64,000 nt of DNA, from NCBI RefSeq assembly GCF_900091495.1, contig NZ_LT607413.1, positions 6,153,001 through 6,217,000 of the forward strand, given 5' to 3'. Shown here piece by piece: positions 3,839 through 33,203 of this stretch (the first letter of the stretch is position 1; the number at the start of each line of letters is the position of its first letter). Position numbers and translations under genes: made by a program. Origin of the DNA: Micromonospora echinospora. GTDB taxonomy: Bacteria > Actinomycetota > Actinomycetes > Mycobacteriales > Micromonosporaceae. The notes below the pieces were generated by a model that searched no databases, was not told where the DNA came from, and worked only from the letters and a program-made list of their open reading frames with translations.

Positions 3839-3857
3839 TTAGGGTAGGCTACCCTTA
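3839..3857. promoter_or_regulatory. Iron box (DmdR/IdeR-type operator) between hydroxylase and formyltransferase
   Basis: The 19-bp sequence TTAGGGTAGGCTACCCTTA contains the inverted arms AGGGTAG/CTACCCT and closely matches the actinobacterial DmdR/IdeR consensus TTAGGTTAGGCTAACCTAA. It lies in the divergent control region of the ornithine monooxygenase (minus) and the formyltransferase (plus), so one Fe(II)-loaded repressor dimer pair could shut both off. Confidence 0.85.
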
Positions 3858-3950
3858 ACATTTATGGCGGTCAATGAGATGACCTTTGTCGCCACGTAGG
3901 TGAGCCGCACCCGGAGTAACCATGCTCGCCAATATCCCGGAGGTTTCCGT

Positions 3951-4895
3951 ATGCGGGTAATCATGTTCGGCTATCAGACCTGGGGACACCGGACCCTCCA
4001 GGCGCTGCTCGAATCCGAGCACGAGGTGGCGCTGGTGGTCACCCACCCGAAGAGCAACCACGCGTACGAACAGATGTGGGACGACTCGGTCGCCGACCTC
4101 GCCCGGGAGCACGGCATCCCGGTGGAGATCCGGCAGCGCCCCGACGACTCGCTGGCCGAGGCCGTCAAGCGGACCGACGCCGACATCATCGTGGCGACCA
4201 ACTGGCGCACCTGGCTGCCGCCGAGCATCTACGACCTGCCCCGCCACGGCACCCTTAACGTGCACGACTCGCTGCTGCCCGCGTACGCCGGCTTCTCGCC
4301 GCTGATCTGGGCAATGATCAACGGCGAGCCCGAGGTCGGGGTGACCGCCCACCTGATGGACGAGGTGCTCGACGCCGGTGACATCGTCCTGCAACGCGCG
4401 GTACCGGTCGGGCCGACCGACACCACCACGGACCTGTTCCACCGGACCCTCGCCCTGTTCGGGCCGATCACCCTGGACGGGCTGGCGCTGATCGCCTCGG
4501 GCCGCACCGACTTCACACCCCAGGACCGAAGCCGGGCGAGCTTCTTCCACAAGCGGTCCCTTGAGGACAGCCGCATCGACTGGACCTGGCCCGCCGAAGA
4601 CCTCGAGCGCCTGGTCAGAGCGCTGTCCGACCCGTACCCGAACGCATTCACCCACCACCGTGGCGCCCGGATCCGGATCCTGGAAGCCGCCGTCAGCGAG
4701 GGCTGCTACGGCGGCACCCCGGGCCGGATCTTCATCCGGGAGGGCGACGGCATCGTCATCGTGGCCGGCGCGGAGGCCCGCCGGGGACGCAGTCACGGCC
4801 TGGTCGTCAAGCGGGTACGCACCGACGACGGCACGGAGCACGCGGCCACCGACTACTTCCACACCATGGGCGGGTACCTCACCGACCGGCCCTGA
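3951..4895 (+). CDS. N5-hydroxyornithine formyltransferase (formyl-THF dependent)
   Basis: A 314-residue methionyl-tRNA formyltransferase-like enzyme. The ATG at 3951 is chosen because a GGAGG lies about 8 bases upstream and the Rossmann-like start MRVIMFGYQTWG matches the family; an earlier in-frame ATG at 3900 adds 17 unconserved residues. The catalytic Asn-His-Asp set is at N103, H105 and D141, within NVHDSLLP and HLMDEVLDAGD, with the same spacing as in E. coli Fmt (106/108/144). In siderophore clusters such as coelichelin this type formylates N5-hydroxyornithine to make the hydroxamate. It faces the hydroxylase across a shared iron box. A true tRNA formyltransferase is unlikely given the location. 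Confidence 0.9.
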   Translation: MRVIMFGYQTWGHRTLQALLESEHEVALVVTHPKSNHAYEQMWDDSVADLAREHGIPVEIRQRPDDSLAEAVKRTDADIIVATNWRTWLPPSIYDLPRHGTLNVHDSLLPAYAGFSPLIWAMINGEPEVGVTAHLMDEVLDAGDIVLQRAVPVGPTDTTTDLFHRTLALFGPITLDGLALIASGRTDFTPQDRSRASFFHKRSLEDSRIDWTWPAEDLERLVRALSDPYPNAFTHHRGARIRILEAAVSEGCYGGTPGRIFIREGDGIVIVAGAEARRGRSHGLVVKRVRTDDGTEHAATDYFHTMGGYLTDRP

Positions 4896-4901
4896 CCGTA
4901 C

Positions 4902-4959: not shown

Positions 4960-4960
4960 T

Positions 4961-5908
4961 TCACCGACCGTCCGACGGCTCCGACATCGCGACCGCGATC
5001 CGGCGCGGGCCGGTGTACGGCTCGCGGCCGTGCGCCACCGCCATGTTGTCCACGATCACGAGATCCTCGCGTCGGTAGTCGAACCGGATCGACGCGGCCC
5101 GGTAGCACTGGCGCAGGTGGTCCACGACGTCGTCGGGGATCACGGCGCCGTCACCGTAGTAGGTGTTGTGGGGGAAGCCGTCCTCGCCGTAGATGTCCCG
5201 GATGGCCTCCCGGACGTCCGGGTCGAGGCTGCTCTCGTGGAACAGGACGATGTGGTTGAACCACACGGGATCCCCGGTGACCGGGTGCCGGTGGACGGCG
5301 TCCCGCACCGCCCGGGTACGCAGGCCGCGCGCGCCGACCCACTCCGGCACGACGCCGCCGGCCCGGCACAGCCGCTCGACCTGGGCCCGGTCCTCGGTGT
5401 CGAACGCGGTCCACCAGCGCAGGCCCACGTCGTCGCCGTAGTTGCGCAGCACCATCCAGCGGCGGCGCTCGAACTCCTCGCGGACGCTCGGGTCGATCAG
5501 CTCGTACACCAGCCTGGTCGAGGCCAGCGGCGTGGCGCCCCGGGTGTGCGGCGGTTCGACGCAGTAGAAGAAGAGCACCAGCGGCCACACCGCCTGATAG
5601 GACATCTCGGTGTGCAGCGGAATCTCCGCGTGCGGGGGGTACTCGGTCGACGTGTAGACGTTGCCTTTGATCCGGCTGCGGGGGGTGGACTGCTCGGTGT
5701 AGGTCAACGGGGCACCGGACAGTGCGCGTACGCAGTCCTCGAAGCCCTCGACACCACCGACGTCGAATCCGCGCAGCAACACCGCGCCGTGCGCGGTGAG
5801 ACTGCGACGAACCGTGGCGCGGTTGGTCCGAAGGTGTTCGACAGCGACGCCCGTTCCCTCGATGACCAGGGGTAACACCGCCTGTGGCGACGGCACCGAG
5901 GTGCTCAT
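4961..5908 (-). CDS. TauD/TfdA-fold Fe(II)/2-oxoglutarate dioxygenase, SyrP/AsnO-like amino-acid hydroxylase
   Basis: A 315-residue non-heme iron oxygenase. The facial triad is visible as H99-T-E101 in IPLHTEMSYQ and H293 in NMAVAHGREPYTGPRR, with the distal arginine just downstream. The stretch TSTEYPPHAEIPLH is characteristic of the SyrP-like branch that beta-hydroxylates Asp or Asn for NRPS products. The likely substrate here is the Asx residue selected by the C-A-PCP-E NRPS in this cluster; beta-hydroxy-Asx is a known iron ligand in other siderophores. It is transcribed away from the binding-protein gene, with an iron box about 20 bases upstream of its ATG. The substrate is inference. Confidence 0.85.
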   Translation of the reverse strand: MSTSVPSPQAVLPLVIEGTGVAVEHLRTNRATVRRSLTAHGAVLLRGFDVGGVEGFEDCVRALSGAPLTYTEQSTPRSRIKGNVYTSTEYPPHAEIPLHTEMSYQAVWPLVLFFYCVEPPHTRGATPLASTRLVYELIDPSVREEFERRRWMVLRNYGDDVGLRWWTAFDTEDRAQVERLCRAGGVVPEWVGARGLRTRAVRDAVHRHPVTGDPVWFNHIVLFHESSLDPDVREAIRDIYGEDGFPHNTYYGDGAVIPDDVVDHLRQCYRAASIRFDYRREDLVIVDNMAVAHGREPYTGPRRIAVAMSEPSDGR

Positions 5909-5927
5909 CTCTCCTCCAACTACGAAC

Positions 5928-5946
5928 TTAGGTTAGCCTCTGCTAT
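5928..5946. promoter_or_regulatory. Iron box upstream of dioxygenase and binding-protein genes
   Basis: TTAGGTTAGCCTCTGCTAT has an almost perfect left half (TTAGGTTAGCCT) and a degenerate right half against the DmdR/IdeR consensus. It lies 20 bases before the dioxygenase ATG and 115 bases before the divergent binding-protein start, so it may control both. Confidence 0.7.
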
Positions 5947-7080: not shown

Positions 7081-7090
7081 CCGGTCCCGG

Positions 7091-7118: not shown

Positions 7119-7151
7119 ACCGGACCGCGCGGCACGGCCGGTGGGGCGCGT

Positions 7152-10100
7152 TCACAGCCGCCCCAGGTACTCGGCGACCACCGGACCGATCTGCGCCAGC
7201 GAGCGCGGCGCCATCAGATCGTCGTGCGCGAAGTCGACCGGGTGCTCGTGGACGCGTCCGGTGAGGTACGGCCGCCACTGCTCCACCGCCCCGCCGGTGC
7301 CGGCGTCAGCCGAGAAGAACAGCACGTCACCGCCGAAGACCTGCGGTTCGGCGCGACGGTCGAGGCGGGTGACCGCCAGCAAGCTGTCGACGATCTCGTG
7401 GATGTCGGCCTCGTCGAGACCGCCGAAGACCCCGCCGTGCTCGGCCGCGTGCCGGCGGACCGTGGCGGGCGTCACGGTCGCCGGGTCGAGGCCCCGTACG
7501 TCGTATCCGGCGCGTTCCAGCCAGCGGTGGTACAGCGTCGACCGGTCCGGTTCGGGGTCCGGCCCGGCGGCGGGCCGGCCCACCTCGGCGTGCGCGTCCA
7601 GCAGGACCAGCAGCGGCACCCGGTGCCCCCAGCTCTCGAGGAGGCAGCCCACGAGCTGCGCGATCCGCCCGCCCAACGACCAACCCAGCAGCAGGTACGG
7701 GCCCTGCGGCTGGTGTGCCACGATCCGCTCCGCGTAGCGGTGCGCCAGCTGTCGGATGTCCGGGGCCTCCCGCTGGTCGGGAGGGATGGTGGTGGCCTGG
7801 AGGCCGTAGACCGGACGGTCGCGGTCCAGGTGCGGCAGCAGGCCGGTGTACATCCAGGCCAGCCCGAGCCGGGGGTGCACACAGAACAGCGTCGGCTCGG
7901 AGCCGGTCCGCCGGATCGGCAGCAACGGCGCGAAGGCCCCGAGCGCACCCGAGCCGGCGGGCAGCGCGGCGACGTCACCGGTGTCGATGACGTCGGCCAG
8001 CCCGGCGACCGTCGGCACGTCGAACACCGTCCGGAGGGCGAGTTCGACGCCGAACTCGGCCCGGATCCGGGTGACCAACCGGGTGGCGAGCAGCGAGTAC
8101 CCGCCCAGCTCGAAGAAGGAGTCGTCCACGCCGACCCGGTCCCGGCCGAGGATCTCCGCGAACAGCGCGCCGACCACCTCCTCGGTCCGGCTCGTCGGCT
8201 CCCGGTACGGCGCGGAGCCGCGCAGCTCGACGGCGGGCAGCGCGGGCCGGTCGATCTTGCCGGAGGGCAGGAGCGGAAACCGGGGCAGACAGACGACCGC
8301 CGCCGGCACCATGTGGTCGGGCAGCCGTCCACGCAGCCAGTCCCGCAGCTCCTCGCCGGTGATGCCGGCCTCCCCCGTGGCGCCGTACCCGACGAGCGCC
8401 GGCACCCCGGTACGGGAGCGGGTGGTCAGCACGACCGCCTGCCGGACGGCCGGGTGCTCGGCCAGCACGGCCTCGACCTCCTGTGGTTCGACCCGCATCC
8501 CACGGATCTTCACCTGGTGGTCGGCCCGCCCACAGAACTCCAGCGTCCCGTCCGGGTTCCAGTAGCCGAGGTCTCCGGTGCGGTAGAGCCGCGCCCCCGG
8601 TGGTCCGAACGGGTCGGCCACGAAGCGCGCGGCGGTCTGCCCCGGCGCGTCGACGTAGCCCCGGCCGAGCGGCAACCCGCCGACGTACAGCTCGCCCTGC
8701 ACCCCGACCGGCACCCGCCGCAGCAGCTCGTCCAGGACGTGGATCCGGGTGTTGGGGTTCGGACGTCCGATGCTCACCGAGGCCCGCTCGGTGCCCGGCT
8801 GGTACAGCAGGTGGCTCACGCCGATGGTCGCCTCGGCGGGGCCGTAGCCGTGGTACATCGTCGCGCCGAGGGTCTGCCGGAACCGGGCGAACAGTTCGGG
8901 GGTGAGCGCCTCTCCCCCGCACCACACGTGTTTCAGGGTTCCCGACACCGCCTTGATGCCGGGCAGGCCGAGCAGCACGTCGAGCACGGACGAGACGAGG
9001 TACGTGAAGGTGACCCGGTGCTCGCGGATCAGCTCCAACAGCCGCGCGGCGTCCCGTTCGGCTCCGGGCTCGGCGATGACGACCCGGGCCCCGGTGACCA
9101 GCGGCAGGAAGATCTCGTTGATCGAGATGTCGAATCCGAGCGGCGCCTTGAACAGGGCCGCGTCACCGGGGCCGAAGCCGAGCATGCCGGCCTGCCAGCG
9201 CAGCCGGGCACAGATCGGACGGTGCAGGATCATGGCTCCCTTCGGGGTGCCGGTGGTGCCCGAGGTGTGGATGACGTACGCCAGGTTGTCGCCGGTCAGC
9301 GACGGCGGACCGCCCGCTCCGGCGACCGCCCCGGCCGGTACACCAGCACCCCCCGGCCCGACCGGGTCGACGGGACGAGCGGAGTCGACGGGGAGGACGT
9401 CGACGTCCGGCATCGGGGGCAGCGCCGCCCGTCCCGGGGCCGTCGTGAGCACCAGCCGGGTGCCCGAGTCGGCGCAGATCCGCGCGATGCGCGCCGCCGG
9501 CCAGGCCGGCTCGACCGGGACGAAGGCCGCTCCCCGGCGCAGGATCGCCAGGAGCGCGACGATCAGCTCAGCGCTGCGGTCCAGGTGCACCCCGACGATC
9601 TGCTCCGGTCCGATCCCCCGGGCGGCGAGCACCCGGCCCAGCGCCTCCGCTCGGGCGTCCAGTTCGGCGTACGTGAGCCGGGCTCCGGCCCCTGCCACGG
9701 CGACCGCGCCCGGGGTACGGGCGACCTGGACGGCGAACAGCTCCGGCAGGGTGTCGTCCGGTACGGCCACGGCCGTGTCGTTGAACGAGTCCAACAACCG
9801 GCGCTGCTCGACGGTGAGCAGGTCCAGATCGGCCAGCCGGGTGTCCGGCGCGGCGACGAGGGTGTCGAGTACCCGCCGCAGGGTGCCCAGCATCGACTCC
9901 ACCGTGCCCGCGTCGAACAGGTCGGTGCGGTACCCGACCTCGACGTCGAGGCCGGGCTCGCCGGACATGCCGCCGAACCGGAACGACAGGTCGAACTTGG
10001 CGACCCCGAGGTCACCGACGAGCAGTTCGGTGTCCAGTCCCGCCAGCTCGGTCCCGGCCGGGGCGTCCTGATGGGTGACGATCGCCTGGAACAGCGGGTG

Positions 10101-13100
10101 GCGGGCCGGCGAGCGGAGTGGGTTCAGGGCCTCCACGAGCCGCTCGAACGGCACGTCGGCGTGGTCGAGCCCGGCGAGGACGGTGTCCCGGGCCCGGGTG
10201 ACCGTCTCGCGCAGCGACGGGTTGCCGGACAGGTCGTGCCGCACGACGAGGGTGTTGACGAAGAAGCCGACCAGACCGGCGACCGCCTCGTCGCCGCGCC
10301 CGGCGACCAGCGCGCCGAGGGGGATGTCGGTGCCGGCACCCAGGTTCGCCAGGGTCACCGCGACGGCGGCCTGGGCGAGCATGAACTCGCTGGCCCCCAG
10401 CTCGTGGCCGAGCCCGCGCAACCGGCTCGCGGCGGCCCCGTCCAGCCTGGCGCGGACGACCCCGCCACGGTAGGTCGCCTGCCGTGGCCGGGGCCGGTCG
10501 GTCGGCAGGGTCAGCTCGTCGGGTACGCCGTCGAGAGCCTTCCGCCAGTACCGGATCTGCGTCGCGGCGAGGCTGTCCGGATCGTCGTCGTCGCCGAGCA
10601 GGTCGCGTTGCCACAGCGCGTAGTCCGCGTACTGCACCGGCAGCGGGGACCAGTGCGGCGGCCCGCCGGCGCGGCGGGCCCGGTACGCCGCCGCCAGGTC
10701 GGCGAGCAGGATCTCCGTGGACCACCCGTCACCGGCGATGTGGTGCAGCACGATGGACAGCACGTACCCGGCGGTGCCGTCGAGCCGCCACAGCCGGCAC
10801 CTGATCGGGACGTCGCGCTCGAGGTCAAAGGCGTACGCGGCGGCGCGGGCCAGCTCCGCGTCGAGCCGTTCGGCCGGCAGCGGCTCCGCGACGAGCGCCG
10901 GTCGGCGCTCCTGCGGGGCACCGATCCGCTGGTGCGGGCCCTCGGCGTCGACGGCGACGACGGTCCGCAGGATCTCGTGCCGCTCGACCACGTCGCCGAG
11001 CGCGGCCCGCAGCGCGGTCACGTTCAGGTCGCCGTGGATCCGCAGCGCGAACGGGATGTTGTACGTCGCGGTGGGGCCGTCGAAGCGGTACAGGAACCAC
11101 AGCCGCTGCTGGGCGAAGGACAGCGGCAGCCGGGCCGGACGACGACCGGCCCGGGGGGACGGCCGGACGGCACCGGCGGTGCCGTCCAGCGCCGCTGCCA
11201 GGCCCGCCACGGTGGGATGCGCGAACACGGTACGGACCGCGACCTCCCGGCCCAGTTTCGCGCGGATCAGCGCGACCAGCCGGGTGGCGAGCAGGGAGTG
11301 CCCGCCGAGGGCGAAGAACGAGTCGTCCGCGCCGATGTCGCCCCTGGCGCTGTCGTCCGCGTTCCGCCCGCCGTCGTGGGTTCCGCCGGTACCGAGCACC
11401 TCGGCGAAGAAGGTGGCGACGGTTCGCTCCGTGGGCGTGGTCGGGGGCTGGGACGTACCGGAGCCGCCGAAGTCCGGGGCGGGCAGCGCCCGCCGGTCGA
11501 GCTTGCCGTTGCCGGTGACCGGCAGCGCGTCGAGTACCACGACGGCGGCCGGCACCAGGTGCTCCGGCAGCCGGGCCCGCAGGTACTCCCGCAGCCGGGC
11601 CGGATCCGGCGCGTTCCCGGTGACGTATCCGACCAGATACCTGCCGCCGGGCCGGTCGTCGCGGGCGACGACGGCGCACCGGGTCACGTCGGGGTGGCCG
11701 GCCAGGACGGCGGAGATCTCGCCGGGTTCGATCCGGAAACCCCGGATCTTCACCTGGTCGTCGGCCCGGCCGGCGTACTCCAGTCCGCCGTCCGGACGCC
11801 GCAGAGCCAGGTCGCCGGTGCGGTAGAACCGCTGCCCCGGCGCACCGAACGGATGGGCCACGAACCGGGTCGCCGTCAACGCGGGCCGCCCCAGGTAGCC
11901 GCGGGTGAGCTGGGGCCCACCGACGTAGACCTCGCCCACGGTCCCGTCCGGGACGGGGCGCAGGGCCGGGTCGAGCAGGTGCACGTCCAGACCGGGCAGG
12001 CCCCGCCCGATGACGCTCGCCGGTGCGCGGGCCACCCCCGCGTCCAGGGCGAGGTGGCTGACGTGCACCGTGGTCTCGGTGATGCCGTACATGTTGACCA
12101 GGCGGGGCGTGTCCTCCGGGTGCCGGGCGTACCAGTCGCGCAGCCGGGTGGGCTCCAGCGCCTCGCCGCCGAAGATCACCGTACGGAGCGCCAACGGGGT
12201 GCCGGGGGTCTCGGCGTCCGCCCGGGCCAGCTCGTCGAAGACCGACGGGGTCTGGTTCAGGACGGTGACCCGGTGTTCCGCCAGCAGCGCCAGCAGGCGC
12301 CCCGGCGAACGGGTCGTCTCCCGGGGGACGACCACCAGGCGGCCACCGTGCAGCAGCGGTCCCCACAGTTCCCAGACGGAGAAGTCGAAGGTGTACGAGT
12401 GGAACAGGGTCCACACGTCGTCGGCGGTGAACCCGAACAGCGGCCGGGTGGCGGCGAACAGGGCGACGACGTTGCGGTGGCTGACCACGACTCCCTTCGG
12501 GGTGCCGGTGGACCCCGAGGTGTAGATGACGTAGGCGGGGTGCTCCGGTCGGGTCGGCGAGACCGGCCACGCACCGGTCGGCTCGGTCCCGGGGTCGTCC
12601 TCGCCGCCGGTCAGCACCAGCCGTGGGACGTCCGGCAGTTCCGGCAGGTCGACGGCGGCGGTGACCAGGGCCGCCGGGGCGGCGTCGGCGAGGGTGAACC
12701 GGATCCGCTCGGCGGGGTGGTCTGGGTCGATCGGCACGTACGCCGCGCCGGCCGCGAGCACCCCCAGCACCGCGACGACCAGTTCCGCCGAGCGGGGCAC
12801 GAGCAACGCGACGCGGTCCTCGGGGCCGATGCCGGCGCGACCGAGCCGACGGGCCAGGCGGTCGGCGCGTCGGTGCAGCTCGGCGTAGCTGAGTCGCCGG
12901 TCACCGTCGACCACCGCGACGGCGTGCGGGGTCCGGGCCGCCTGGGCGGCGAACAACTCTGGCAGGGTCGCCGCGCCGGCCGCGTCCGGCTCCGGCCGGA
13001 GCGCCGGCTCGGCGTCGAGGACCCGGCGGCTGGCATGGACCCGGCCGGAGCGGGGCCCGGTGGCCGTACCGGCGGCGACGAGGGCGGCGACCTCCGCCGG

Positions 13101-19282: not shown

Positions 19283-19284
19283 GC

Positions 19285-23900: not shown

Positions 23901-24500
23901 CACGACCAGTCCGCGCCACCCGGAGCGGGTGTCGACGCGCTGCCGACCGTTGTCGGTGATGCGTACCCGCAGCATGTCGTGGCGGGCCACGAGCCGTTCC
24001 AGGGCGGCGGCCAGCCGGTCCGGGTCCACCCCGGTACCGTCGAACTCGGTGTAGAGGTGGGCGGCGACGCCACCCAGCGGGTGCCCGTCGGTACGCCCGA
24101 CCCAGTAGGCGTACTGCATCGGCGCCAACGCGAACTCCTCGCCGGAGCCGTCGGCCGGCTGGCCCGACCCGGCGGTGTCGGGGTCGCGGGAGGTGCCGGC
24201 GGCCCCGGTCCGGGCGGTGCCGGCGTGCGGTGGCGGCGCGGCGCGGGTGGGGTCGTCCGGTGTCCGGTTGAGCAGCTCGGACCACGCGGTGACGGTCGGC
24301 CGCTGGGCGAGTTCGGCGAAGTCGACCTGGAAGCCGGCCCGCCGCCAGGTGCCGACCAGGCGCATCAGGGTGATCGAGTCCAGCCCCTCCTCGAACAGGT
24401 TGGTGCTGGCGCCCACCGTCGCCGGTTCCTCTTCCAGCAGATCGGCGAGGGTGGCGCGGAGACCGGCCTCGCTGACGTCCGGCGTGTGCGACGTACTCAC
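20946..24500 (-). CDS. MbtB-like loading NRPS, ArCP-Cy-A-PCP
   Basis: An 1184-residue synthetase that begins the chain. GTG at 24500 is favoured: it lies 1 base after the salicylate synthase stop and has a GGGGAGG ribosome site; an ATG at 24566 would add 22 low-complexity residues. Order: aryl carrier (LDSITLMR, phosphopantetheine Ser42), heterocyclization domain (DVDMVAADAVS near 252, which fits DxxxxDxxS instead of the normal HHxxxDG), adenylation (FTSGSTGEPKG near 717), carrier (GGDSLLATR near 1107). The pocket reads D-L-F-N-L-G-L-I-H-K, in the Cys/Ser/Thr group used by cyclization modules. It should condense and cyclize salicylate with Cys, Ser or Thr to a hydroxyphenyl-thiazoline or -oxazoline. 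Confidence 0.95.
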   Translation of the reverse strand: MSTSHTPDVSEAGLRATLADLLEEEPATVGASTNLFEEGLDSITLMRLVGTWRRAGFQVDFAELAQRPTVTAWSELLNRTPDDPTRAAPPPHAGTARTGAAGTSRDPDTAGSGQPADGSGEEFALAPMQYAYWVGRTDGHPLGGVAAHLYTEFDGTGVDPDRLAAALERLVARHDMLRVRITDNGRQRVDTRSGWRGLVVHDLRDAGPDQVEEALAATRDTWSHQLLDIEAGEVFATALSLLPGGRTRLHLDVDMVAADAVSYRVMLADLARLYADPAATLPPIGYHYRDYLAARPVARRDAQRRAAAYWRERLAALPGAPDLPLAADHPVPGTPRVVREHLFLPAEQRAALAAAARRHGVTLAATVATTFAEVLGAWSGQPRFLLNVPMFDRAPTHPDVDLLVGDFTSSVLLAVDLSERLAFADRVRAVQARLHADAANADHPGVAVLRDLTRAAGRQVIAPVVFTSALNLGELFADSVRREFGDAGWIVSQGPQVLLDAQVTEMTDGLLVNWDVRVREFADGVVPAMFAAFATLVRRLATDPAVWRDPVDGLLPPAQLAIRDRVNATDGPCRARTLHGDFFAHARARPDAPALRWGEASQLTYGELAERALRVAGALTAHGVAPGDPVGVSLPKGPDQVVAVLGVLAAGGAYVPVGTDQPPARAARIAALAGFHVLLTAGKEPDGGLPLARASTHPPLPTPVPSGGDDLAYLLFTSGSTGEPKGVEMPHRAATNTIDDLRDRYRLGPEDRTLAVSALDFDLSVFDVFAPLSSGGVVVVVGEDERREAHRWAELVRAHRVTVLNCVPQLLDAMLRAVGDRADLRSLRVVLLGGDRVGVDLPARLAVAAPGCRFVALGGTTETAIHSTVCELDPGAAVPADWQSVPYGTPLRNVVVRVVDPLGRDCPDWVPGELWIGGAGVARGYRGDPRRTAERFVHSGGRRWYRTGDRARYRPDGTVEFLGRLDDQVKIRGFRVELGEVEAALSAGESVRAAVAVLTGGDRPALGAAVVTDGTTTVEEVRERVRDLLPAHMVPDRVVRLDAVPLTPNGKIDRRAVRVAVERADAGPAARVAPDDEVTRAVGLIWAEALEAEPDTLGVTDDFFASGGDSLLATRVVAALRDTLGATVSARMLFVAPTIAGLAERMLAAEPAPARLRRAAAVYCEVAALSDDEVAAQLDEGERV

Positions 24501-24501: not shown

Positions 24502-25884
24502 TCAGGCCACCTCCCCGCCGGCGACGGGGACCGGCTCGTCGGTTCCGACCAGGAACGGGCTGACACTGCGCAGCTTCTCCCGGGTCTCCTCCAACTCCCG
24601 CTCTGGTGTGGACTGGGCGACGATGCCCGCTCCGGCGCGCAGCCACGTCCGCCCGTCCTGCTGGAAGACGGTGCGCAGGACCAGCGCGGCGTCGAGCCCG
24701 CCGTCGGAGTCCGCGACCACCACGGCTCCGCTGTAGAGGCCGCGCGGCGTGGTCTCGTACCGGTGGATCGCGGCGCAGGCCGCGCGCTTCGGTATGCCGG
24801 ACGCGGTGATCGCGGGAAACAGCGCAGCGGCGGCGTGCCAGCAGTTGCGGCCCGCGTCTAGCCGGCCGGTGACCCGGGAGGCGAGGTGCTGCACGCTGCC
24901 CCTGCGTTGGACCGTCAGGAACTCCTCGATGTGCACCGAGCCGTCGCGGCACACGCCGCGCAGCTCCTCCTGGGCGGCCTGCACCGAGATCGCGTGCTCG
25001 AAGATCTCCTTCGGGTCGCCGAGCAGTTCCGCGCGCAGCTCCTCGTCGACCGTGTCCAGCCCGGACAGCGCGCGGGTGCCGGCCAGTGGCTGGGTGGAGA
25101 TCGTGCCGTCGGCACCGACCTCGATGACGGTCTCCGGGCTGAACCCGGCGGCCTGCACGCCGCCGATCCGGAGCAGGAAGGACCGCGCCGGCGTGTTGCG
25201 TCGGCGACCGGTCCGGTACGTCGCGACGAGGTCCACGGGGCCGGGGACGGGGACCACGCGGGACAGGATCACCTTCTGCAGGTCGCCGCCGCGGATGTCG
25301 CGGATGGCCGAGGCGACCGCGGCCCGGTACTCGACCGCTCCGCTCGACTCGTCGACGGGACGGCCGTCCGCGTGGTGCGGCGGCTGGTCGGGTACGGCGG
25401 AGAGTCGGGCCGACAGGTCGGCGAGCCCGGCCGGGTCGGTGGCCCGCAGGTGGGCCGTCCGGTTGCTGATGCGGGCTTCCCGCCGCGGTACGACGAGATG
25501 CAGCAGTGGCGCCGGCCCGACCGCTTCCGGCATGCCGTGCAGCAGGTAGCTCAGCTCGAAGCCGATCCAGCCGTACGCGCGCCAGCCGGCGACGTCGAGG
25601 CCGGCCAGCAGCCGGTGCACCTGTTGCAGGGGCTCGTCACCGGTCGGCTCGACATGTCGGTGTTCACCGATGCGTACCTGGACCTGCCGGCGGTCGAGGA
25701 CGATCTCGGCGAGCACGCCGGAGGCGACGGCGACCTCGCCGGGGCGTTCGTACACGACGAGGGGACCCCGCGCCCGGTGGACCAGGTCGACTCCGGCGGC
25801 GACCGGGTCGCGTGCCACGGTCACACTGGCGTGCAGGTACCGCTGCAGTGTTCCGTCGGCGCCCGCCCCGGCACGGTCAGACAT
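24502..25884 (-). CDS. Salicylate synthase (MbtI/Irp9 family)
   Basis: A 460-residue chorismate-using enzyme that converts chorismate through isochorismate to salicylate and pyruvate, supplying the aryl cap. Family motifs are [25 protein letters not shown] and the C-terminal [22 protein letters not shown]. The N-terminal half has the MbtI-like [13 protein letters not shown] rather than an EntC arrangement, and length matches MbtI (about 450). The ATG at 25884 overlaps the MbtH gene by 8 bases. A plain isochorismate synthase is the alternative, but no isochorismatase is encoded here, so direct salicylate formation fits better. Confidence 0.93.
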
Positions 25885-26116
25885 CGGTCTGGTGGTGGTC
25901 GCGGTCCGTCCGCATCAGGGCGACCAGGCTCGCCGGGCGCATGTCGGTCCACACCGCCTCGATATGGCCGAGGCACGCCTGCCTGCTGTCCGGGCCGTGG
26001 GCGATCGACCAGCCGGCCGGAACGGCCGCGAACACCGGCCACAGCGAGTACTGGCCCTCACTGTTGACCAGGGCGTGAAAGACGCCGTCCTCGTCATCGA
26101 AAGGGTTGTCGGGCAC
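25877..26116 (-). CDS. MbtH-like NRPS chaperone
   Basis: A 79-residue protein with the MbtH signature: [20 protein letters not shown], then [13 protein letters not shown], then a C-terminal TDMRPASL. Such proteins bind adenylation domains and are often needed for their folding and activity. The start is GTG at 26116 with GGAGGA 8 bases before it. It is the first gene of the 19-kb siderophore biosynthesis operon, overlaps the salicylate synthase gene, and lies about 100 bases downstream of an iron box. Confidence 0.95.
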
Positions 26117-26216: not shown

Positions 26217-26235
26217 TTAGGTAAGCCAACCCTAA
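26217..26235 (-). promoter_or_regulatory. Iron box of the main biosynthetic operon
   Basis: TTAGGTAAGCCAACCCTAA matches the DmdR/IdeR consensus closely, with TTAGG at one edge and CCTAA at the other. It is 101 bases upstream of the MbtH GTG, in the gap between that gene and the transport operon that ends at 26388. It is the likely iron-dependent switch for the genes from 26116 down to 7152. Confidence 0.8.
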
Positions 26236-26387: not shown

Positions 26388-27230
26388 TCAGCTCCGGCCG
26401 GACAACTCCGGGGTCGGCACGGCGGCCCGGTGCCGACGGCCGATCGGGACCACCAACGGGGTACCGGACACCGGATCGTCGACAACCTGCGCGTCGAGCC
26501 CGAACACCTCCCGGATCACCGCCGGGGTGAGCACCTCGTACGGGGTGCCCGAGGCGACGATCCGACCGTCGCGCATCGCCACCAGCCGACCGGCGTAGCG
26601 CGCGGCGAGGTTGAGGTCGTGCAGCACCATCACGACCGTCCGGCCACCCTCGCGGTGCAACCGCTCGACCAGGTCGAGGACGTCGATCTGGTGGGCCAGG
26701 TCGAGGAAGGTGGTCGGCTCGTCGAGCAGCAGCACGTCCGTCTGCTGGGCGAGGGCCATGGAGATCCACACTCGCTGGCGTTGCCCACCGGACAGCGTGT
26801 CGAGGCCGCGTTCGGCGAACTCCGCCATGTCGGTCCACCGGAGCGCCTCGGCGACCGCCTCCTCGTCCGCCGCCGACCACTGGCGGTACCAGGCCTGATG
26901 CGGGTGGCGTCCCCGGGCGACCAGGTCCGCCACCGTCATACCGTCCGGGGCGGTCGGGGACTGCGGCAGGACCCCCAGCACCTTGGCGACCCGCCGGGAG
27001 GGAATCCGGTCGATCCGTACGCCGTCGAGCAGAACGTGTCCACCGGTGGTGGGCAGCAGCCGCCCCAGCGTACGCAGCAGGGTCGACTTGCCACAGCCGT
27101 TCGGCCCGATCACCGCGGTGATGGAGCCGTCCAGCACGTCGATGTCCAGGCCGTCGAGCACCGCCCGGTCGCCGTAGGCGACGCGTAACCCACGGGCCCG
27201 CAGGCGGGCGGTGGGAGCCATCTCCGTCAT
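26388..27230 (-). CDS. Ferric-siderophore ABC transporter ATPase, second uptake set
   Basis: A 280-residue ATPase, FepC-like, with Walker A GPNGCGKST, signature LSGGQRQR, Walker B LLLDEPT and H-loop VLHDLN. The C-terminal VFGLDAQVVDDPVSGTP parallels the ATPase at 1633-2445, so the window holds two paralogous uptake systems. ATG at 27230 overlaps the permease stop at 27227 (ATGA). It ends the transport operon, and a 270-base gap separates it from the biosynthetic operon read in the same direction. Confidence 0.95.
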   Translation of the reverse strand: MTEMAPTARLRARGLRVAYGDRAVLDGLDIDVLDGSITAVIGPNGCGKSTLLRTLGRLLPTTGGHVLLDGVRIDRIPSRRVAKVLGVLPQSPTAPDGMTVADLVARGRHPHQAWYRQWSAADEEAVAEALRWTDMAEFAERGLDTLSGGQRQRVWISMALAQQTDVLLLDEPTTFLDLAHQIDVLDLVERLHREGGRTVVMVLHDLNLAARYAGRLVAMRDGRIVASGTPYEVLTPAVIREVFGLDAQVVDDPVSGTPLVVPIGRRHRAAVPTPELSGRS

Positions 27231-28335
27231 ACGCTGACCCTCCGGTTGCCACGGACGAGCAGATGGAGCAGGTACGGTGCGCCGAGGATCGCGGTGACCA
27301 CGCCCACCGGAAGTTCGACGCCGAGCGCGGTCCGCGCCAGCAGGTCCGCTGCGACGGTCAGCAGCGCGCCGTAGACGGCCGAGGCGAGTAGCGGCGGCCG
27401 GGCGCCGCCCACCAGCCGCTGGCAGATCTGCGGCACGACCAGCGCGACGAAGGCGACCGGGCCGGCGCTCGCGGTCGCCACGGCGGCGAGCCCGACGGCG
27501 ACGGTGACCAGCCCGGCCCGGACCCGGTTGAGCCGCAGGCCGAGACCTCGGGCGGTGTCGTCACCGAGTTGCAGCGCGCCCAGCGGGAACGCCAGCAGCA
27601 GCGCGACCGGTACCAGCACAACCAACGCCAGTCCCACCGGGACGACGTGCTCCCAGCCGCGCGCGTAGAGCGAGCCGACCAGCCACACCGTGCCCCGGGC
27701 GGCCTCCTCGATCTCCGCGACCACCAGCAACCAGTTCGCCAGGGCGGCGGCCAGCGCGCCGACCCCCACCCCGACCAGGACGAGTCGGTATCCGTCGAGC
27801 CCACGCCGGTACGCCAACAGGTAGACCAGGGCCGCGGTGCCGAGACCACCCACCAGCGCCGCGACCGGCAGGCCCACCTCGGCCAGCAGCCCGCCCCCGG
27901 CGACGGAGCCGCCCCCAGCACGATGACCGCCACCGCTGCCGCGCTGCCGCCGGCGGTGACCCCGAGGATGTCCGGGCTGGCCAACGGGTTACGGGCGACG
28001 ACCTGGGTGATCGCGCCGGACAGTCCCAACGCGGCGCCGACGAGAAGCCCGGTCAACGTCCGGGGAAGCCGCAGTTCCAGCACCACGAAACGGTCCGCGC
28101 GGTCGCCACCGCCGAACAGGACGGCGACCACCTCGCCGACGGAAATGGGGAAATCGCCACGTCCGACGTTCACCGCGGCGACCAGACCGAGCAGGACCAG
28201 CCCGACCAGGGTCACCCCCACCGTCCGGGGGCGCCACACGCCGGACAACGGACCGACCCGTACGGGCGTCCGGCCCGGCACCCGGCCGGCCGGCCGCTCG
28301 TACCGGGTGACCTGGTCCACTCCGCCGGCGCTCAC
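27227..28335 (-). pseudogene. FecCD permease split by a one-base frameshift
   Basis: The N-terminal half (LRLPRTLTGLLVGAALG, RNPLASPDILGVTAGG) is in one frame from a GTG at 28335 that overlaps the upstream stop. The C-terminal half (GLPVAALVGG, GPVAFVALVVPQICQRL, GAPYLLHLLVR) is in another frame from about 27910 to the TGA at 27227. Adding one base to the five-C run at 27912-27916 (five G on the coding strand) joins the halves as VIVLGGGSVAGGGLLAEVGLP, a normal family sequence of about 369 residues. So this is either a homopolymer sequencing error, a real inactivating deletion, or less likely programmed slippage. If real, the second uptake system lacks half its channel. Confidence 0.85.
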
Positions 28336-29393
28336 AACGACACCAGCCGGTGCCGGCGGCGCACCAGGGCGACGAAGAACGGCGCGCCGACGAACACGAG
28401 GACGATGCCGACCTGAAGCTCCCCAGGGGACACCACCACCCGGCCGATCACGTCCGCCGCCAGCAGGAGCACGGCGCCGGCCAGACCCGACGCGGGCAGC
28501 AACCAGCGGTGGTCGGGGCCGGTGAAGTGCCGCGCTACATGCGGCGCCACCAGGCCCAGGAACGCGATAGGCCCGCACGCCGCCACCGCCGCTCCAGCGA
28601 GCAGCGTGACCGCGACCAGACCGGTCCAGCGGACCCGGCGCACGTTGACGCCGAGTCCCCGGGCGATCTCCTCGCCGAGCGCCAGCAGGTTCAACCCCGG
28701 CGCGTTCAGCGCGGCAAGCACCAGTCCGGCGAGGAGGAACGGCGTGACCTGCCAGGTGATGTCGGCACCCCGGTCGGCGACCGAACCCGCGGCCCAGAAC
28801 CGGAACCTGTCCAAGGTCTGCACGTCGGACAGGACGAGCGCCGAGGTCAGCGACGTCAGCAGGGCGCTCAGCGCGACCCCGGCCAGGGCCAGGGTGACCG
28901 GGGTGGGCCCACCCCTGCCGACCGAGCCGAGCAGGAACACCGCGACGCTCGCCGCGAAGGCGCCGGCGAATGCGAACCAGACGTAGCCATACAGACCGGT
29001 GACGCCGAGGAGGTCGATGCCGACCACGACGCCGAACGCGGCACCCGCGCTGACACCCAGCAGGCCCGGTTCGGCCAGCGGGTTACGGGTGTGTCCCTGC
29101 ATCAACGCGCCGGCGACGCCCAGCGCCATCCCCACCCCGAGGCCCAGCACCGTACGTGGCACACGCAGCGTGCGGACGACGAAGTCGTGCTCGCTCCCGG
29201 TGGGTGCGGTGATCGCGCTCCACACCGCGTCGGGTGGAATCGGCTTCGCCCCGACAGTGAGGCTGGCGAGCGCCGCCAGCACGAGCAACGCCAGCAGCGT
29301 GATCAGCACGGTAATCCGCCCGCGCCGGACGTCTCCGATCACGGGCTGACTGGCGGAGCCCGCCCGATTCCGGGCGCTGAACACGGCTTTCAC
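28332..29393 (-). CDS. FecCD-family siderophore ABC permease, second uptake set
   Basis: A 353-residue membrane permease with the family markers VRTLRVPRTVLGLGVGMALG, TRNPLAEPGLLGV, GPIAFLGLVAPHVAR and GAPFFVALVRRRH. ATG at 29393 is the first gene of the minus-strand uptake operon. Its stop overlaps the GTG of the frameshifted partner permease by 3 bases. The control region upstream holds an iron box shared with the divergent exporter genes, so uptake and export would respond together to iron. Confidence 0.95.
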   Translation of the reverse strand: MKAVFSARNRAGSASQPVIGDVRRGRITVLITLLALLVLAALASLTVGAKPIPPDAVWSAITAPTGSEHDFVVRTLRVPRTVLGLGVGMALGVAGALMQGHTRNPLAEPGLLGVSAGAAFGVVVGIDLLGVTGLYGYVWFAFAGAFAASVAVFLLGSVGRGGPTPVTLALAGVALSALLTSLTSALVLSDVQTLDRFRFWAAGSVADRGADITWQVTPFLLAGLVLAALNAPGLNLLALGEEIARGLGVNVRRVRWTGLVAVTLLAGAAVAACGPIAFLGLVAPHVARHFTGPDHRWLLPASGLAGAVLLLAADVIGRVVVSPGELQVGIVLVFVGAPFFVALVRRRHRLVSL

Positions 29394-29485
29394 ATGCGTC
29401 GTCTCTCAATTCCACGCCCCGGCCACTGAGGGCGGTTGAATGATCAGGAACTGGCCACAATCAAGGATTTCTTCCGTCCAGCAAC

Positions 29486-29504
29486 TTAGGTTAGCCTACC
29501 TTTC
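29486..29504. promoter_or_regulatory. Iron box between uptake operon and exporter genes
   Basis: TTAGGTTAGCCTACCTTTC matches the DmdR/IdeR consensus, with a perfect left half and a slightly degenerate right half. It is 93 bases upstream of the permease ATG (minus) and 41 bases upstream of the preferred exporter GTG (plus). Confidence 0.8.
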
Positions 29505-29544
29505 AATGTTCTTCGATCCGTCTACGGGAGCTGTCGGGGGAACG

Positions 29545-31314
29545 GTGAACGGAGAACCGAGTGCTGACGACCATGCCACCGCCACCGGACTGCTGCGGCG
29601 CGCTGTCCGCCGGCACCTGGGCCGGCTCTCCGCCACCCTCGCCCTGCTCTGCGTACACCAGGCCGCCGAGGCGCTGGTACCGGTAGCCATCGGTCTGATC
29701 ATCGACCGGGCCGTGGCGACCGGGGACAGTTCCGCGCTGACGGCGTCGATCGCCGGCCTCGGCCTGCTGTTCGTCGTCATCGCTCTGGCCTGGCGGTTCG
29801 GCGCCGCGCACGGGCTGCGGGCCATGGAACGGGAGGCACACCTGCTGCGGGTCGAGATCAGCCGGCTGATCCTCGATCCCCGCGACCACCGCACGGGCAT
29901 GCGCGACGGGGAACTGCTGGCCGTCGCGTCCACCGACGTGACGGCCATGGCGACGGTGATCCGGGCGGTGAGCATGGCGGCGAGCGCGTCGACCGCGCTG
30001 GCCGTCTCGTGCATCGCATTACTTGTAATCGATGCCCCATTCGGGCTCGGGGTCCTGGTCGGCGCGGTGATCGTCGTGACCGTCCTACAGCGCCTCGCCC
30101 CACTGTTGACCCGGCGGGGAATCGTCCAGCAGACCACCATGTCCGCCACCACCGCGCTCGCCACGGACCTGCTCCACGGAGTCCGGGTGCTCCACGGGCT
30201 CGGAGCGCAGGGCAACGCGTCCCGACGGTACGCACAGGCAAGCGCTCGACAGTTGGCGGCCACCGTGCACACCGCCAACGTCAAGGGACTCCACCAGGGT
30301 CTTACCGTGTTGGTCAGTGGGCTGTACCTGGCCGGTGTCACGGCCGCCGCTGGTTGGCTCGCGGTACGCGGACGGATCACGGTGGGAGAACTCATCGCCG
30401 TGGTGGGGCTTGCGCAGTTCGCCGCGGAACCGCTGCAACGCCTCGGGTTCTGCGTCCAGCTCCACGCCGGCGCTCGCGCGTCCGCCCAGCGGATCGCCCG
30501 GGTCCTCGCCGCCGCGCCCACCATCCGTCCCGGCGACCGGACACCGCTGCCCCACGCCGAGACGCGACTCGCCCTCGATGCGGTCAGTTACCGCACCCTC
30601 GAACGGCTCACCCTGGCGGTGCACGCCGACGAGACGCTCGGCGTGGTCACCGACGACCCGGGGGACGCCGACGCCCTCCTGATGCTCCTCTCCGGTCGCG
30701 TGCCGCGACACGAGTACACCGGCACGGTGACCATCGACGGGGTTCCCGCCGAGCAGCTCGACCTCGACGCCGCCCGCGCGACCGTGCTGGTCGAACCGCA
30801 TCGCGTCGCGCTGTTCGACGGAACCCTCAGGTCGAACCTGCTCCCCGGCCACCGCTCTTGGACGACCTCCAGCGGGCGGGACTCGGCCGCACCGGCTGTC
30901 GACGACGGCCAGCACCGGCTCGCCACCGCGATCCGGGCCGCCGCAGCCGACGACGTTGTCGCCGGCCACCCGGACGAACTGGACCGGCCGTTGACTGGCC
31001 AGGGTACGAACCTCTCCGGCGGGCAGCGGCAGCGCGTCGGCCTCGCCCGGGCCCTGGCGGCGGACCCCCCGGTGTTGGTCCTGCACGAACCGACGACATC
31101 GGTGGACCCGGTCACGGAATCGCTGATCGCCGACGGACTCGCGCAGGCCCGCCAGGGCGGCTCCCGCAGCACCGTCGTGGTCACCACCAGCCCGACCCTG
31201 CTGAACGCAACGCACCGGGTGGTCGTCATCCGCGCCGGCCGGCTGGTCGCCGAAGGCACCCACGCCGACCTGGTCGCCACGGAACCCGCATACCGCGAGG
31301 CGGTGCTGCGGTGA
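29545..31314 (+). CDS. ABC exporter half-transporter with degenerate Walker A (siderophore export, inferred)
   Basis: A 589-residue half-transporter: an N-terminal six-helix exporter domain, then an ATPase domain. GTG at 29545, preceded by GGGGGA, is preferred; the in-frame ATG at 29506 directly abuts the iron box and would leave no room for a leader. The ATPase keeps a perfect signature, LSGGQRQR, near 490. But the Walker A position reads GVVTDDPGDADALL with no GK[ST], Walker B is VLVLHEPTTSVD (His for the usual Asp), and the H-loop position reads VTTSPT without His. Its partner, overlapping by 4 bases, has the opposite defect. Export of the finished siderophore is inferred from context and the shared iron box. 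Confidence 0.9.
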   Translation: MNGEPSADDHATATGLLRRAVRRHLGRLSATLALLCVHQAAEALVPVAIGLIIDRAVATGDSSALTASIAGLGLLFVVIALAWRFGAAHGLRAMEREAHLLRVEISRLILDPRDHRTGMRDGELLAVASTDVTAMATVIRAVSMAASASTALAVSCIALLVIDAPFGLGVLVGAVIVVTVLQRLAPLLTRRGIVQQTTMSATTALATDLLHGVRVLHGLGAQGNASRRYAQASARQLAATVHTANVKGLHQGLTVLVSGLYLAGVTAAAGWLAVRGRITVGELIAVVGLAQFAAEPLQRLGFCVQLHAGARASAQRIARVLAAAPTIRPGDRTPLPHAETRLALDAVSYRTLERLTLAVHADETLGVVTDDPGDADALLMLLSGRVPRHEYTGTVTIDGVPAEQLDLDAARATVLVEPHRVALFDGTLRSNLLPGHRSWTTSSGRDSAAPAVDDGQHRLATAIRAAAADDVVAGHPDELDRPLTGQGTNLSGGQRQRVGLARALAADPPVLVLHEPTTSVDPVTESLIADGLAQARQGGSRSTVVVTTSPTLLNATHRVVVIRAGRLVAEGTHADLVATEPAYREAVLR

Positions 31315-33203
31315 CCAAGACTTCCACGGCGCACCGGGCCCTGCCGACCGCTTCCGCCGGCCAGACCTGGGCCACGCTGCGCACGGAGGCCGGCACGATG
31401 CCGGGACTCACCGCCGCTGCACTCGCCGTCGCCGTCGCAGCCAGCGCGATCGGGCTGGTGGCGCCCTGGGTCCTCGGCGACATGATCGACAACCTCCTCG
31501 GCGGCACCACCCTCGGGCACCTGTTCCGGGCCGTAACGGTGGTCGCGGTGGCCGCCGTGCTCGGCGCCGCGCTGACCGCCTGGGCGACGGTCCTCGTCGC
31601 CCGAGTCAGCGCCACCGTTCTCGCCCGGCTACGGGAGCGGGCACTGGACCGGGCCCTCCACCTACCGGTGACCTCCCTGGACCGGGTCGGCACCGGTGAC
31701 CTGCTGTCCCGCGTGGGCGACGACGCCGCCGTGGTGAACACGGTGGTGAGCACCACCGGGCCCACCCTGGTCTCGACGCTGATCACGGTCGTCCTCACCG
31801 GCGTCGGGATGTTCGCGGTGGACTGGCGGCTCGGCCTGGCCGGGCTGGCCGCGGCCCCGTTGTACGCGTGGGCGCTGCGGTGGTACCTGCCCCGGTCCGG
31901 GCCGTACTACGCGAAGGAGCGGGTCGCGGCGGCGCAGCGCTCCGAGGCGATCGTCGGCGCGCTGCGGGGAGGCACGACGGTACGGGCCTACCGCCTCGAG
32001 ACCGAACACGTCGGCCAGATAGCCGACCGCTCCCACACGGCGATGGGGCTGTCCGTGGGGGTCTTCACAATGTTCACCCGCTTCGTGTCCCGGATCAACC
32101 GCGCGGAGTTCGTCGGCTTGAGCGCCGTCCTCGTCGTCGGCTACCTCCTGGTCCGCGCCGACGCCGTGACGGTGGGCGCGACGACCGCCGCGGCCCTGTA
32201 CTTCCACCGCCTCTTCAATCCCCTGGCCCTGCTGCTCTCCGAGGCCGACGCGCTCCAGCGGGCAGGCGCGAGCCTGGCGCGGCTGGTCGGGGTGGCTCGG
32301 CTACCCGCGTCGGCGGCTGCGGGCGATCCCGCACCCCTGACCGACACCTCGATGGAGATCATCGACGTCACCCACTGGTACGACGACGGCCCGCCCGTCC
32401 TGCTCGACATCTCCCTGCGCATCCCCGCAGGGCGACGGGTCGCGCTGGTGGGGGCCAGCGGTGCCGGCAAGACCACGCTGGCCGCGATCGCGGGCGCGAT
32501 GATCGCACCGGCTACCGGATCGGTCCGCATCGGCGGTGTGGATCCGTCCACCCTGGAGGGATCCTTCGTACGGCGCCACGTCGGCATCGTCACCCAGCAG
32601 GTGCACGTCTTCTCCGGGCCGCTGGTCGAGGACCTGCGGCTGGCGCGACCCGAGGCGACGGAGGAGCAGGTCACTGCCGCCCTCGATGCCGTCGGTGCGC
32701 TCGGCTGGGTCCGGGAACTGCCCGACGGGCTGTACACCGTCGTCGGCGAGGGCGCCCACCAGCTCACCGACGCTCAGGCCCAGCACCTCGCGCTGGCCCG
32801 GCTGGTGCTCGCCGACCCCCCGGTCGCGATCCTGGACGAGGCGACCGCCGAGGCGGGCAGCGCCGGTGCCCGCGACCTCGACGCGGCGGCGACCGCCGCG
32901 ACCGCCGGGCGGACCACGCTGATCGTCGCGCACCGGCTCACCCAGGCCGCCACCGCCGACCGGATCGTCGTCCTCGACCAAGGCAAGATCGTCGAGACGG
33001 GATCACACGCCGAACTCGTCTCGGCGGAAGGGATGTACGGCAGGCTCTGGCGAAGCTGGAGCGGCACCCGTGCTGGTGTTCGCGACCGGCCCCGCCAGGC
33101 GGCGGACCGCTCCGGCCGACCGGGCACCGGTGCCGGAGTCGTTCCCGGAACCGGCGCGGTCGACCCTCGGACCGGATCCGGCTTGGCCGTTCCGGATCGG
33201 TAG
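31311..33203 (+). CDS. ABC exporter half-transporter with degenerate signature motif
   Basis: A 630-residue partner of the previous gene, starting at GTG 31311 inside a 4-base overlap. The N-terminal part has about six hydrophobic segments; the ATPase has an intact Walker A GASGAGKTT near 381, Walker B VAILDEAT near 506 and H-loop IVAHRL near 541. The ABC signature, however, reads HQLTDAQAQHLALA instead of LSGGQ. With the partner's LSGGQ it can form one complete ATP site, while the second site lacks both Walker A and signature. The C-terminus has a 40-residue Arg/Gly/Pro-rich tail (after RLWRSWSGT) that may be translated junction sequence rather than family sequence. Confidence 0.92.
   Translation: MTKTSTAHRALPTASAGQTWATLRTEAGTMPGLTAAALAVAVAASAIGLVAPWVLGDMIDNLLGGTTLGHLFRAVTVVAVAAVLGAALTAWATVLVARVSATVLARLRERALDRALHLPVTSLDRVGTGDLLSRVGDDAAVVNTVVSTTGPTLVSTLITVVLTGVGMFAVDWRLGLAGLAAAPLYAWALRWYLPRSGPYYAKERVAAAQRSEAIVGALRGGTTVRAYRLETEHVGQIADRSHTAMGLSVGVFTMFTRFVSRINRAEFVGLSAVLVVGYLLVRADAVTVGATTAAALYFHRLFNPLALLLSEADALQRAGASLARLVGVARLPASAAAGDPAPLTDTSMEIIDVTHWYDDGPPVLLDISLRIPAGRRVALVGASGAGKTTLAAIAGAMIAPATGSVRIGGVDPSTLEGSFVRRHVGIVTQQVHVFSGPLVEDLRLARPEATEEQVTAALDAVGALGWVRELPDGLYTVVGEGAHQLTDAQAQHLALARLVLADPPVAILDEATAEAGSAGARDLDAAATAATAGRTTLIVAHRLTQAATADRIVVLDQGKIVETGSHAELVSAEGMYGRLWRSWSGTRAGVRDRPRQAADRSGRPGTGAGVVPGTGAVDPRTGSGLAVPDR

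Follow-up and report, generated by a model that had tools for sequence, protein, structure and literature searches.

Which compound is made by a siderophore-type gene cluster of Micromonospora echinospora, and through which ligands would it hold iron? The cluster lies in a stretch of 64,000 nucleotides (contig NZ_LT607413.1, positions 6,153,001 to 6,217,000), hereafter the window, whose source genome is a single contig of 7.78 Mb. By reading of open reading frames (ORFs), Pfam and NCBIfam, a nonribosomal peptide synthetase (NRPS) siderophore locus was found to span positions 2475-33203 of the window. It appears probable, if well short of certain, that this locus serves to make and handle a hexadentate ferric siderophore with mixed ligands, and that its control is iron-responsive. 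The product predicted from the sequence is salicyl-oxazoline (from Ser or Thr) / D-beta-hydroxy-Asx / L-Thr / formyl-hydroxyornithine, Asx being aspartate or asparagine.

In order, the locus comprises an N-oxygenase gene, a formyltransferase gene on the plus strand, a TauD-family dioxygenase gene, a binding protein gene (plus), a minus-strand biosynthetic operon, a FecCDE importer and two ABC exporters (plus). The operon encodes three NRPS proteins, an aryl-AMP ligase, a salicylate synthase and an MbtH protein, and the ends of its genes overlap or abut. Such a gene content is not explicable by chance. Every gene and domain named in an initial annotation of this DNA was recovered; its interval, 3839-33203, had to be widened to 2475-33203, as it omitted an ornithine/lysine N-oxygenase at 2475-3818 (PF13434); position 3839 is where an iron-box-like site starts. 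Beyond the elements listed there, MbtH, the periplasmic-type binding protein, the FecCDE importer and the two ABC exporters also form part of the locus.

Assembly line and predicted product

The starter set of a salicyl-oxazoline-type siderophore is complete in the window. It consists of a salicylate synthase (24502-25884, minus strand; TIGR03494 with 470 bits, the cut-off being 325, PF00425), a salicylate-AMP ligase (19285-20949, minus strand), whose best sequence match in the PDB is the salicylate-AMP ligase 5wm2 (687 bits) and whose second-best is a 2,3-dihydroxybenzoate-AMP ligase (633 bits), and a first synthetase (20946-24500, minus strand) built of an aryl carrier protein (ArCP), a heterocyclisation (Cy), an adenylation (A) and a thiolation (T) domain. 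The second synthetase (14447-19288, minus strand) has the order condensation (C), A, T and epimerisation (E), and the third (7152-14450, minus strand) the order C-A-T-C-A-T with a terminal thioesterase (TE), all assigned from Pfam, A-domain codes and catalytic motifs and, in the last two proteins, C-type profiles. An MbtH-like protein (25877-26116, minus strand; PF03621) stands at the head of the operon.

The codes of the A domains, nine positions anchored on motifs, read DLFNLGLIH (A1), DFTKVAEVG (A2), DFWNIGMVH (A3) and DINYWGGIG (A4). A1 resembles Cys codes. According to the available passages on two related systems, CahA (cahuitamycin), predicted for Cys, loads Ser, as in amychelin, and KasH (kasichelin), also predicted for Cys, yields a Thr-derived ring; since closely similar Cy-A domains take Ser or Thr in spite of their Cys-like codes, the heterocycle is, by analogy, probably an oxazoline from one of these two rather than a thiazoline. 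The thiazoline was further disfavoured by position 301, which holds Gly and not Ser, and by His at 331. A3 has the standard Thr code, and the code of A4 is one which we take to denote hydroxyornithine or its formyl form, so that the locus holds both an ornithine N-oxygenase (PF13434) and a hydroxyornithine-type A domain, as would be looked for in a hydroxamate siderophore. The A4 code, together with the first code DLYNLGLIH, also occurs in the Amycolatopsis loci L067, L068 and L070, presumed to be of the amychelin type (L and G numbers are our handles for loci and genomes).

A2 is presumably Asn-like, with Thr 239, Lys 278, Glu 322 and a Val-Gly ending, Phe 236 and Ala 301 being unusual. The code of an Asp module is expected to hold His at position 322, where A2 has Glu. 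Among printed codes, in the passages available, DLTKVGHVGK is given for both Asp and Asn, and DLTKIGEVGK stands in an Asn context. The residue would thus be Asn-like by the presumed meaning of its code and Asp by the logic of chelation. When the literature was searched for six ten-letter codes, DFWNIGMVHK alone was found in print, and therefore the other assignments stem from general knowledge or from comparison.

In the C-A-T-E protein, HHVAWDD stands in the first C domain in place of the usual motif HHxxxDG. Profiles were trained on C-type domains of other loci, namely 61 C domains following an E domain (DCL), 145 C domains not following one (LCL) and 95 E domains, and in self-classification recovered 61/61, 124/145 and 95/95, respectively. 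The C domain of module 2 scored 305 bits as LCL versus 190 as DCL, the E domain 462 bits, the C domain of module 3 502 bits as DCL versus 267 as LCL, and that of module 4 517 bits as LCL versus 157 as DCL. The resulting series LCL, E, DCL, LCL is the order expected. Domain order, A codes and C-domain types thereby back the residue order proposed in the initial annotation, salicyl, heterocycle, D-Asx, Thr and hydroxamate; as to the ligands claimed there, the tie between dioxygenase and Asx has gained comparative support, while beta-hydroxylation and N-formylation are still read from gene content.

In the mechanism proposed, salicylate synthase would make salicylate, which the AMP ligase would load onto the ArCP, and the Cy domain would join it to Ser or Thr and close the 2-hydroxyphenyl-oxazoline. 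Module 2 would load L-Asx, the SyrP-like dioxygenase would beta-hydroxylate it on the carrier, and the E domain would turn it to the D-form, whereupon the DCL-type domain of the third protein would hand the chain to L-Thr and next to N5-formyl-N5-hydroxy-L-ornithine, supplied by the N-oxygenase and the formyltransferase; TE would release the free acid. Substrates, beta-hydroxylation, formylation, release and metal are predictions from the genes. The calculated [M+H]+ is 612.2148 for methyloxazoline with hydroxy-Asp and 611.2307 for methyloxazoline with hydroxy-Asn, and 14.0157 lower with an unmethylated oxazoline.

The dioxygenase, the Asx code and related clusters

The TauD/SyrP-like Fe(II)/2-oxoglutarate dioxygenase (4961-5908, minus strand; PF02668) is the proposed beta-hydroxylase of carrier-bound Asx. 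Its HxE motif, distal His and Arg align with 1y0z. A PDB sequence search gave five matches, none of them a characterised amino-acid beta-hydroxylase, and therefore its substrate is not readable from structure. Among the matches listed its nearest relative, 97% identical, is also named Micromonospora echinospora, and its subgroup (E 1e-130) occurs in 2 of 300 sampled Micromonosporaceae, the genome of the window included.

A scan with the C-A-T-E protein gave at least 74 distinct loci. Seven among the matches listed, at 52-61% identity, show the starter genes of the window as far as their contigs extend; they come from Actinosynnema, Actinophytocola, S. inusitatus, Dactylosporangium (same family as the genome of the window), Pseudonocardia eucalypti, Frankia AiPs1 and Actinokineospora diospyrosa. 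The dioxygenase is 69-76% identical in all seven. Aryl-ligase matches of 22-31% in most loci were ignored as cross-matches between A domains. A search of 13 genomes of the genus Frankia and 16 of the genus Actinokineospora added G008, G011, G321, G329, G330 and G332.

When the window is taken together with 13 related clusters, the code of module 2 is DFTKVAEVG in all 14, and none of 314 A domains from 67 other loci has it. The dioxygenase is present in each of the 14 genomes; 12 have it on the contig of the cluster, and the remaining two (G006, G011) are fragmented drafts. A1 was read in nine of the 14, as DLFNLGLIH in eight and DMFNLGLIH in S. inusitatus; the starters of G321, G329, G330 and G332 were left out of this reading. 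In Frankia, the C-A-T-E protein (at least 58%) and the dioxygenase co-occur in the same three of 13 genomes, and other Frankia genomes have a homologous starter beside a salicylate synthase and no dioxygenase at E 1e-40. The module-2 codes of these dioxygenase-free clusters are DPVQLGLVW (G012), DPVQLGVVW (G015), DPVQLGLVW (G018) and DILQLGLVW (G009, read without its first code), none of the four thus being DFTKVAEVG, and the Thr module is retained in the three of the four that are readable that far; G016 was dropped, as its contig ends before module 2, and G013, G014, G017 and G019 were not included. In Actinokineospora, the ArCP-Cy-A protein (at least 63%) and the dioxygenase (at least 71%) occur in the same five of 16 genomes, about 27-30 kb apart. 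By this pattern of 14/14 versus 0/4 the dioxygenase was assigned to the Asx module and not to the salicylate starter, and very likely serves that module; no p-value is attached, because the clusters share ancestry.

Beta-hydroxy-Asp siderophores of the IBH type need an extra interface condensation-type domain beside the Asp module. As far as this requirement is understood by us, the window differs from the IBH_Asp type, for no such domain was found: all Pfam Condensation stretches in its synthetases are the C, E, C, C and Cy domains named above.

The enzyme might instead hydroxylate something else, for example Thr, Orn or the ring, or yield no ligand, in which case the product would have two ligand types like the amychelin group. 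SyrP-like enzymes of this family do accompany many other genes (best 120 of 1709 proteins, at least 58% identity; by name also in Nocardia, Kibdelosporangium, Crossiella, Lentzea, Actinocorallia and others), and a near copy in A. diospyrosa (L106/L107; 74% identical) adjoins MbtH and an A-T protein with the non-Asx code DDVQLSTID, which may point to reuse of the enzyme with another amino acid. In the tree, 50 of 90 rows make up the clade of the dioxygenase, which has good support (100/99, midpoint root) and includes the Pseudonocardia row; the A. diospyrosa paralogue is placed within an Actinokineospora group (100/95) as the neighbour of the siderophore copy, a pairing with weak support (93/49), and was therefore taken as a later duplicate. 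The Asn-like code would lead to beta-hydroxy-Asn, which is not an established siderophore ligand, and the available passages of a recent survey do not have it among the chelating groups (eLife 2026). Set against the co-occurrence with DFTKVAEVG and its absence from starter-sharing Frankia clusters that retain the Thr module, action on another substrate, or a product that is no ligand, is judged unlikely.

The related clusters differ in what follows module 2. The window continues with Thr-hydroxyornithine-TE, Actinophytocola with Thr-hydroxyornithine, Pseudonocardia with DVFSIAMVH-hydroxyornithine, and Dactylosporangium with Thr-[DGDD..]-hydroxyornithine and a separate [DGDD..] protein; Actinosynnema, A. 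diospyrosa and Frankia G008 have Thr, two [D(G/A)DD..] modules, hydroxyornithine and one more module, and S. inusitatus has Thr, DVWHLSLVD and DVWILGAVN. Of the complete forms observed that bring their own N-oxygenase, formyltransferase and TE, none is shorter than that of the window. Long forms (L009/L093, L074/L105, L012/L099, L120-L122, L191-L194) contain one to three modules coded DGDDAGxVD, with up to four pocket Asp residues, which perhaps load a cationic residue.

These architectures also bear on whether the locus makes a known compound of the amychelin, gobichelin, cahuitamycin, kineochelin and frankobactin group, or a simple congener. The starter logic is shared, and Frankia clusters hold homologous starters with an identical first code. 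Yet the window has three modules behind the starter, as against six in the dioxygenase-bearing Frankia cluster and five in Frankia G012, which lacks both a dioxygenase and an Asx code; kineochelin, in the passages available, has the different order Sal-Thr-Gly-fhOrn-Ser-Ser-cyclic hOrn, hOrn being hydroxyornithine and fhOrn its formyl form (PMC13238742). Identity with a described compound of this group thus seems decidedly improbable.

For the clusters as a whole, it is quite possible, if still somewhat doubtful, that they form a scattered actinobacterial family combining three bidentate ligands, phenolate-oxazoline, beta-hydroxy-D-Asx and hydroxamate, in one peptide, with a new clade of carrier-dependent beta-hydroxylases tied to one unusual Asx code, which may make beta-hydroxy-D-asparagine.

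Hydroxamate supply, iron control and transport

The L-ornithine N5-oxygenase (2475-3818, minus strand; Lys_Orn_oxgnase, PF13434, 364 bits) has best copies 51-67% identical in six relatives (G001, G002, G003, G004, G007, G008), and the N-formyltransferase (3900-4895, plus strand; PF00551, PF02911), the putative formylating enzyme of N5-hydroxyornithine, best copies 70-80% identical in five (G001-G004, G007). The two genes adjoin each other in the window and in these five.

Iron-box-like sites were sought with a presumed consensus. In its strict form with at most three mismatches it matched twice in the 64 kb, versus 0.00 expected. A relaxed pattern, chosen after the strict scan and after two further sites had been spotted by eye, gave eight matches (four places, both strands) versus a mean of 0.10 in 100 shuffles. 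Strict and relaxed scans agree on the palindrome TTAGGGTAGGCTACCCTTA (3839-3857), between N-oxygenase and formyltransferase, and on the site at 26217-26235, upstream of the MbtH-salicylate synthase-NRPS operon; the sites at 5928-5946, between dioxygenase and binding protein, and at 29486-29504, before the exporters and within the longest reading of exporter 1, come from the relaxed scan with two mismatches. All four sit where transcription of the four gene groups must begin, and control is presumably of the IdeR/DmdR type. In the stitched clusters of relatives the relaxed pattern was met, as raw counts without a shuffle baseline, once in Actinosynnema, A. diospyrosa and a 10-kb Frankia fragment, twice in Actinophytocola, three times in Frankia G008 and four times each in S. 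inusitatus, Dactylosporangium and Pseudonocardia, and not at all in a 3.5-kb Frankia fragment or in the 39.5-kb locus of the A. diospyrosa paralogue.

Besides these four sites the locus holds ferric-siderophore importer genes, as in an iron-regulated siderophore locus: a binding protein (Peripla_BP_2, PF01497; 6007-7080, plus strand), a FecE-type ATPase (26388-27230, minus; PF00005), a FecD-type permease (27227 to about 28335, minus; ORFs, Pfam), whose N and C halves lie in different frames, and a FecC-type permease (28332-29393, minus; PF01032). The products of the two FecD frames match both halves of one intact Pseudonocardia eucalypti protein. A second FecCD-type permease set with ATPase directly adjoins the locus (1-2445, plus strand) and could substitute for the frameshifted importer. 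ABC exporter subunit 1 (29440-31314, plus), the true start of which probably lies downstream of the iron box, and subunit 2 (31311-33203, plus; PF00664, PF00005) close the locus. A 541-aa ORF without Pfam match (32774-34399, minus) overlaps the end of exporter 2, and two transposase genes (34457-35254 and 35324-36607; DDE_Tnp_4, Mutator family) lie just past the exporters. Across the genome, condensation domains were matched 52 times; many of these matches belong to other NRPS loci, and about half lie between 6.0 and 7.3 Mb.

Several of these observations weigh against the product, or the family, as proposed, together with the A. diospyrosa copy and the standing of beta-hydroxy-Asn mentioned above. 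The N-oxygenase/formyltransferase pair is off the contig of the cluster in four of the five relatives (G001, G002, G003, G007), a formyltransferase was not found at E 1e-40 in four relatives (G005, G006, G008 and G011), and the Pseudonocardia genome, one of these four, has no match to the N-oxygenase at that threshold either, although its last synthetase is the most similar (60%) and shares the last-module code; hydroxamate supply is therefore not demonstrated family-wide. In S. inusitatus, no DINYWGGIG module was found in the stretch read, and the FecD frameshift may mean that the importer is dead or that the sequence is wrong.

Least probable of all is that the C-terminal hydroxyornithine escapes N-formylation and is cyclised by TE, the case in kineochelin and amychelin, or that the locus is decaying and without a working siderophore system: the terminal hydroxyornithine with TE, the FecD frameshift and the adjoining transposase genes would fit, but the cyclised terminal residue of the kineochelin type pairs with the code DAWEGGLVD, not the DINYWGGIG of the window, formyltransferase and N-oxygenase share one iron-box gap, and the biosynthetic frames are open.

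Comparison with known siderophore systems

In the literature searched, with most subscription papers and MIBiG outside its scope, no description of the predicted compound or residue order was found; a search joining Nocardia, Frankia and hydroxyaspartate found nothing, and one for asterobactin gave citations only. According to the available passages of the survey, 42 of 2,489 complete nonribosomal peptide (NRP) metallophore regions have three chelators, all 42 of the pyoverdine-chromophore type, and several unreported beta-hydroxylase clades were seen and kept out of the detection rules (eLife 2026). These rules may miss the dioxygenase of the window, and loci of this kind were probably counted as two-chelator, so that the silence of the survey is weak evidence of rarity. 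Should the prediction hold, it would add a ligand set unreported, as far as those passages go, among the 2,489 regions, and a beta-hydroxylase clade such as those set aside there for want of evidence would gain a function (eLife 2026).

By analogy, the closest compounds appear to be amychelin, cahuitamycin, gobichelin, kineochelin and perhaps frankobactin. With the first three, in the passages available, the window shares salicylate synthase, salicylate-AMP ligase, an ArCP-Cy-A starter and formyl-hydroxyornithine (cahuitamycin); their chains are rich in Ser and contain another ornithine, which is cyclised, whereas in the window the starter is followed by three modules, one of them for Asx and a single one for ornithine, and a dioxygenase is present. 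The kineochelins of Actinokineospora sp. UV203, in what is available of their description, resemble it in the salicyl-methyloxazoline start, formyl-hydroxyornithine and iron regulation, and differ in Gly, two Ser, a cyclic hydroxyornithine, KinA without ArCP and a separate ArCP-TE (PMC13238742). Loci of the kin type have the starter code DMFNFGVLW, at 40-42% identity to the starter protein of the window, and, when codes are aligned to the published residue order, DLWFLGCVN where formylhydroxyornithine stands and DAWEGGLVD for the cyclised residue at the end; no terminal module of this amychelin/kineochelin type was found in the window. The window resembles the loci of the beta-hydroxyaspartate hydroxylases TBH_Asp, IBH_Asp and Cyano, as far as the available passages describe them, in that a siderophore locus pairs a TauD-family enzyme with an adjacent NRPS module of the Asx type (PMC12971057).

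Catenulobactins, from Catenuloplanes of the Micromonosporaceae, likewise have a methyloxazoline from L-Thr and N5-hydroxyornithine; unlike the window they reportedly have two methyloxazolines and D-hydroxyornithine, and Asx is not mentioned in the passages available. Frankobactin of Frankia sp. CH37 reportedly has, by its abstract, 2-hydroxyphenyl-oxazoline and five further residues; its MIBiG entries, BGC0002409 and BGC0002410, are said, in a source available in part, to be split in two, and the passages available elsewhere give no structure. Starters homologous to that of the window, with an identical first code, occur in Frankia genomes; the window differs from the frankobactins, as reported, in having three residues after the oxazoline and a dioxygenase. 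Frankia sister clusters (L180-L182, L183-L184, L185) have the same starter and no dioxygenase, and the module count of G012 fits frankobactin as so reported. A pair of Frankia clusters, one starter with and without the dioxygenase, thus is a natural experiment on the role of the third ligand, and also bears on the question of iron versus copper raised for frankobactin.

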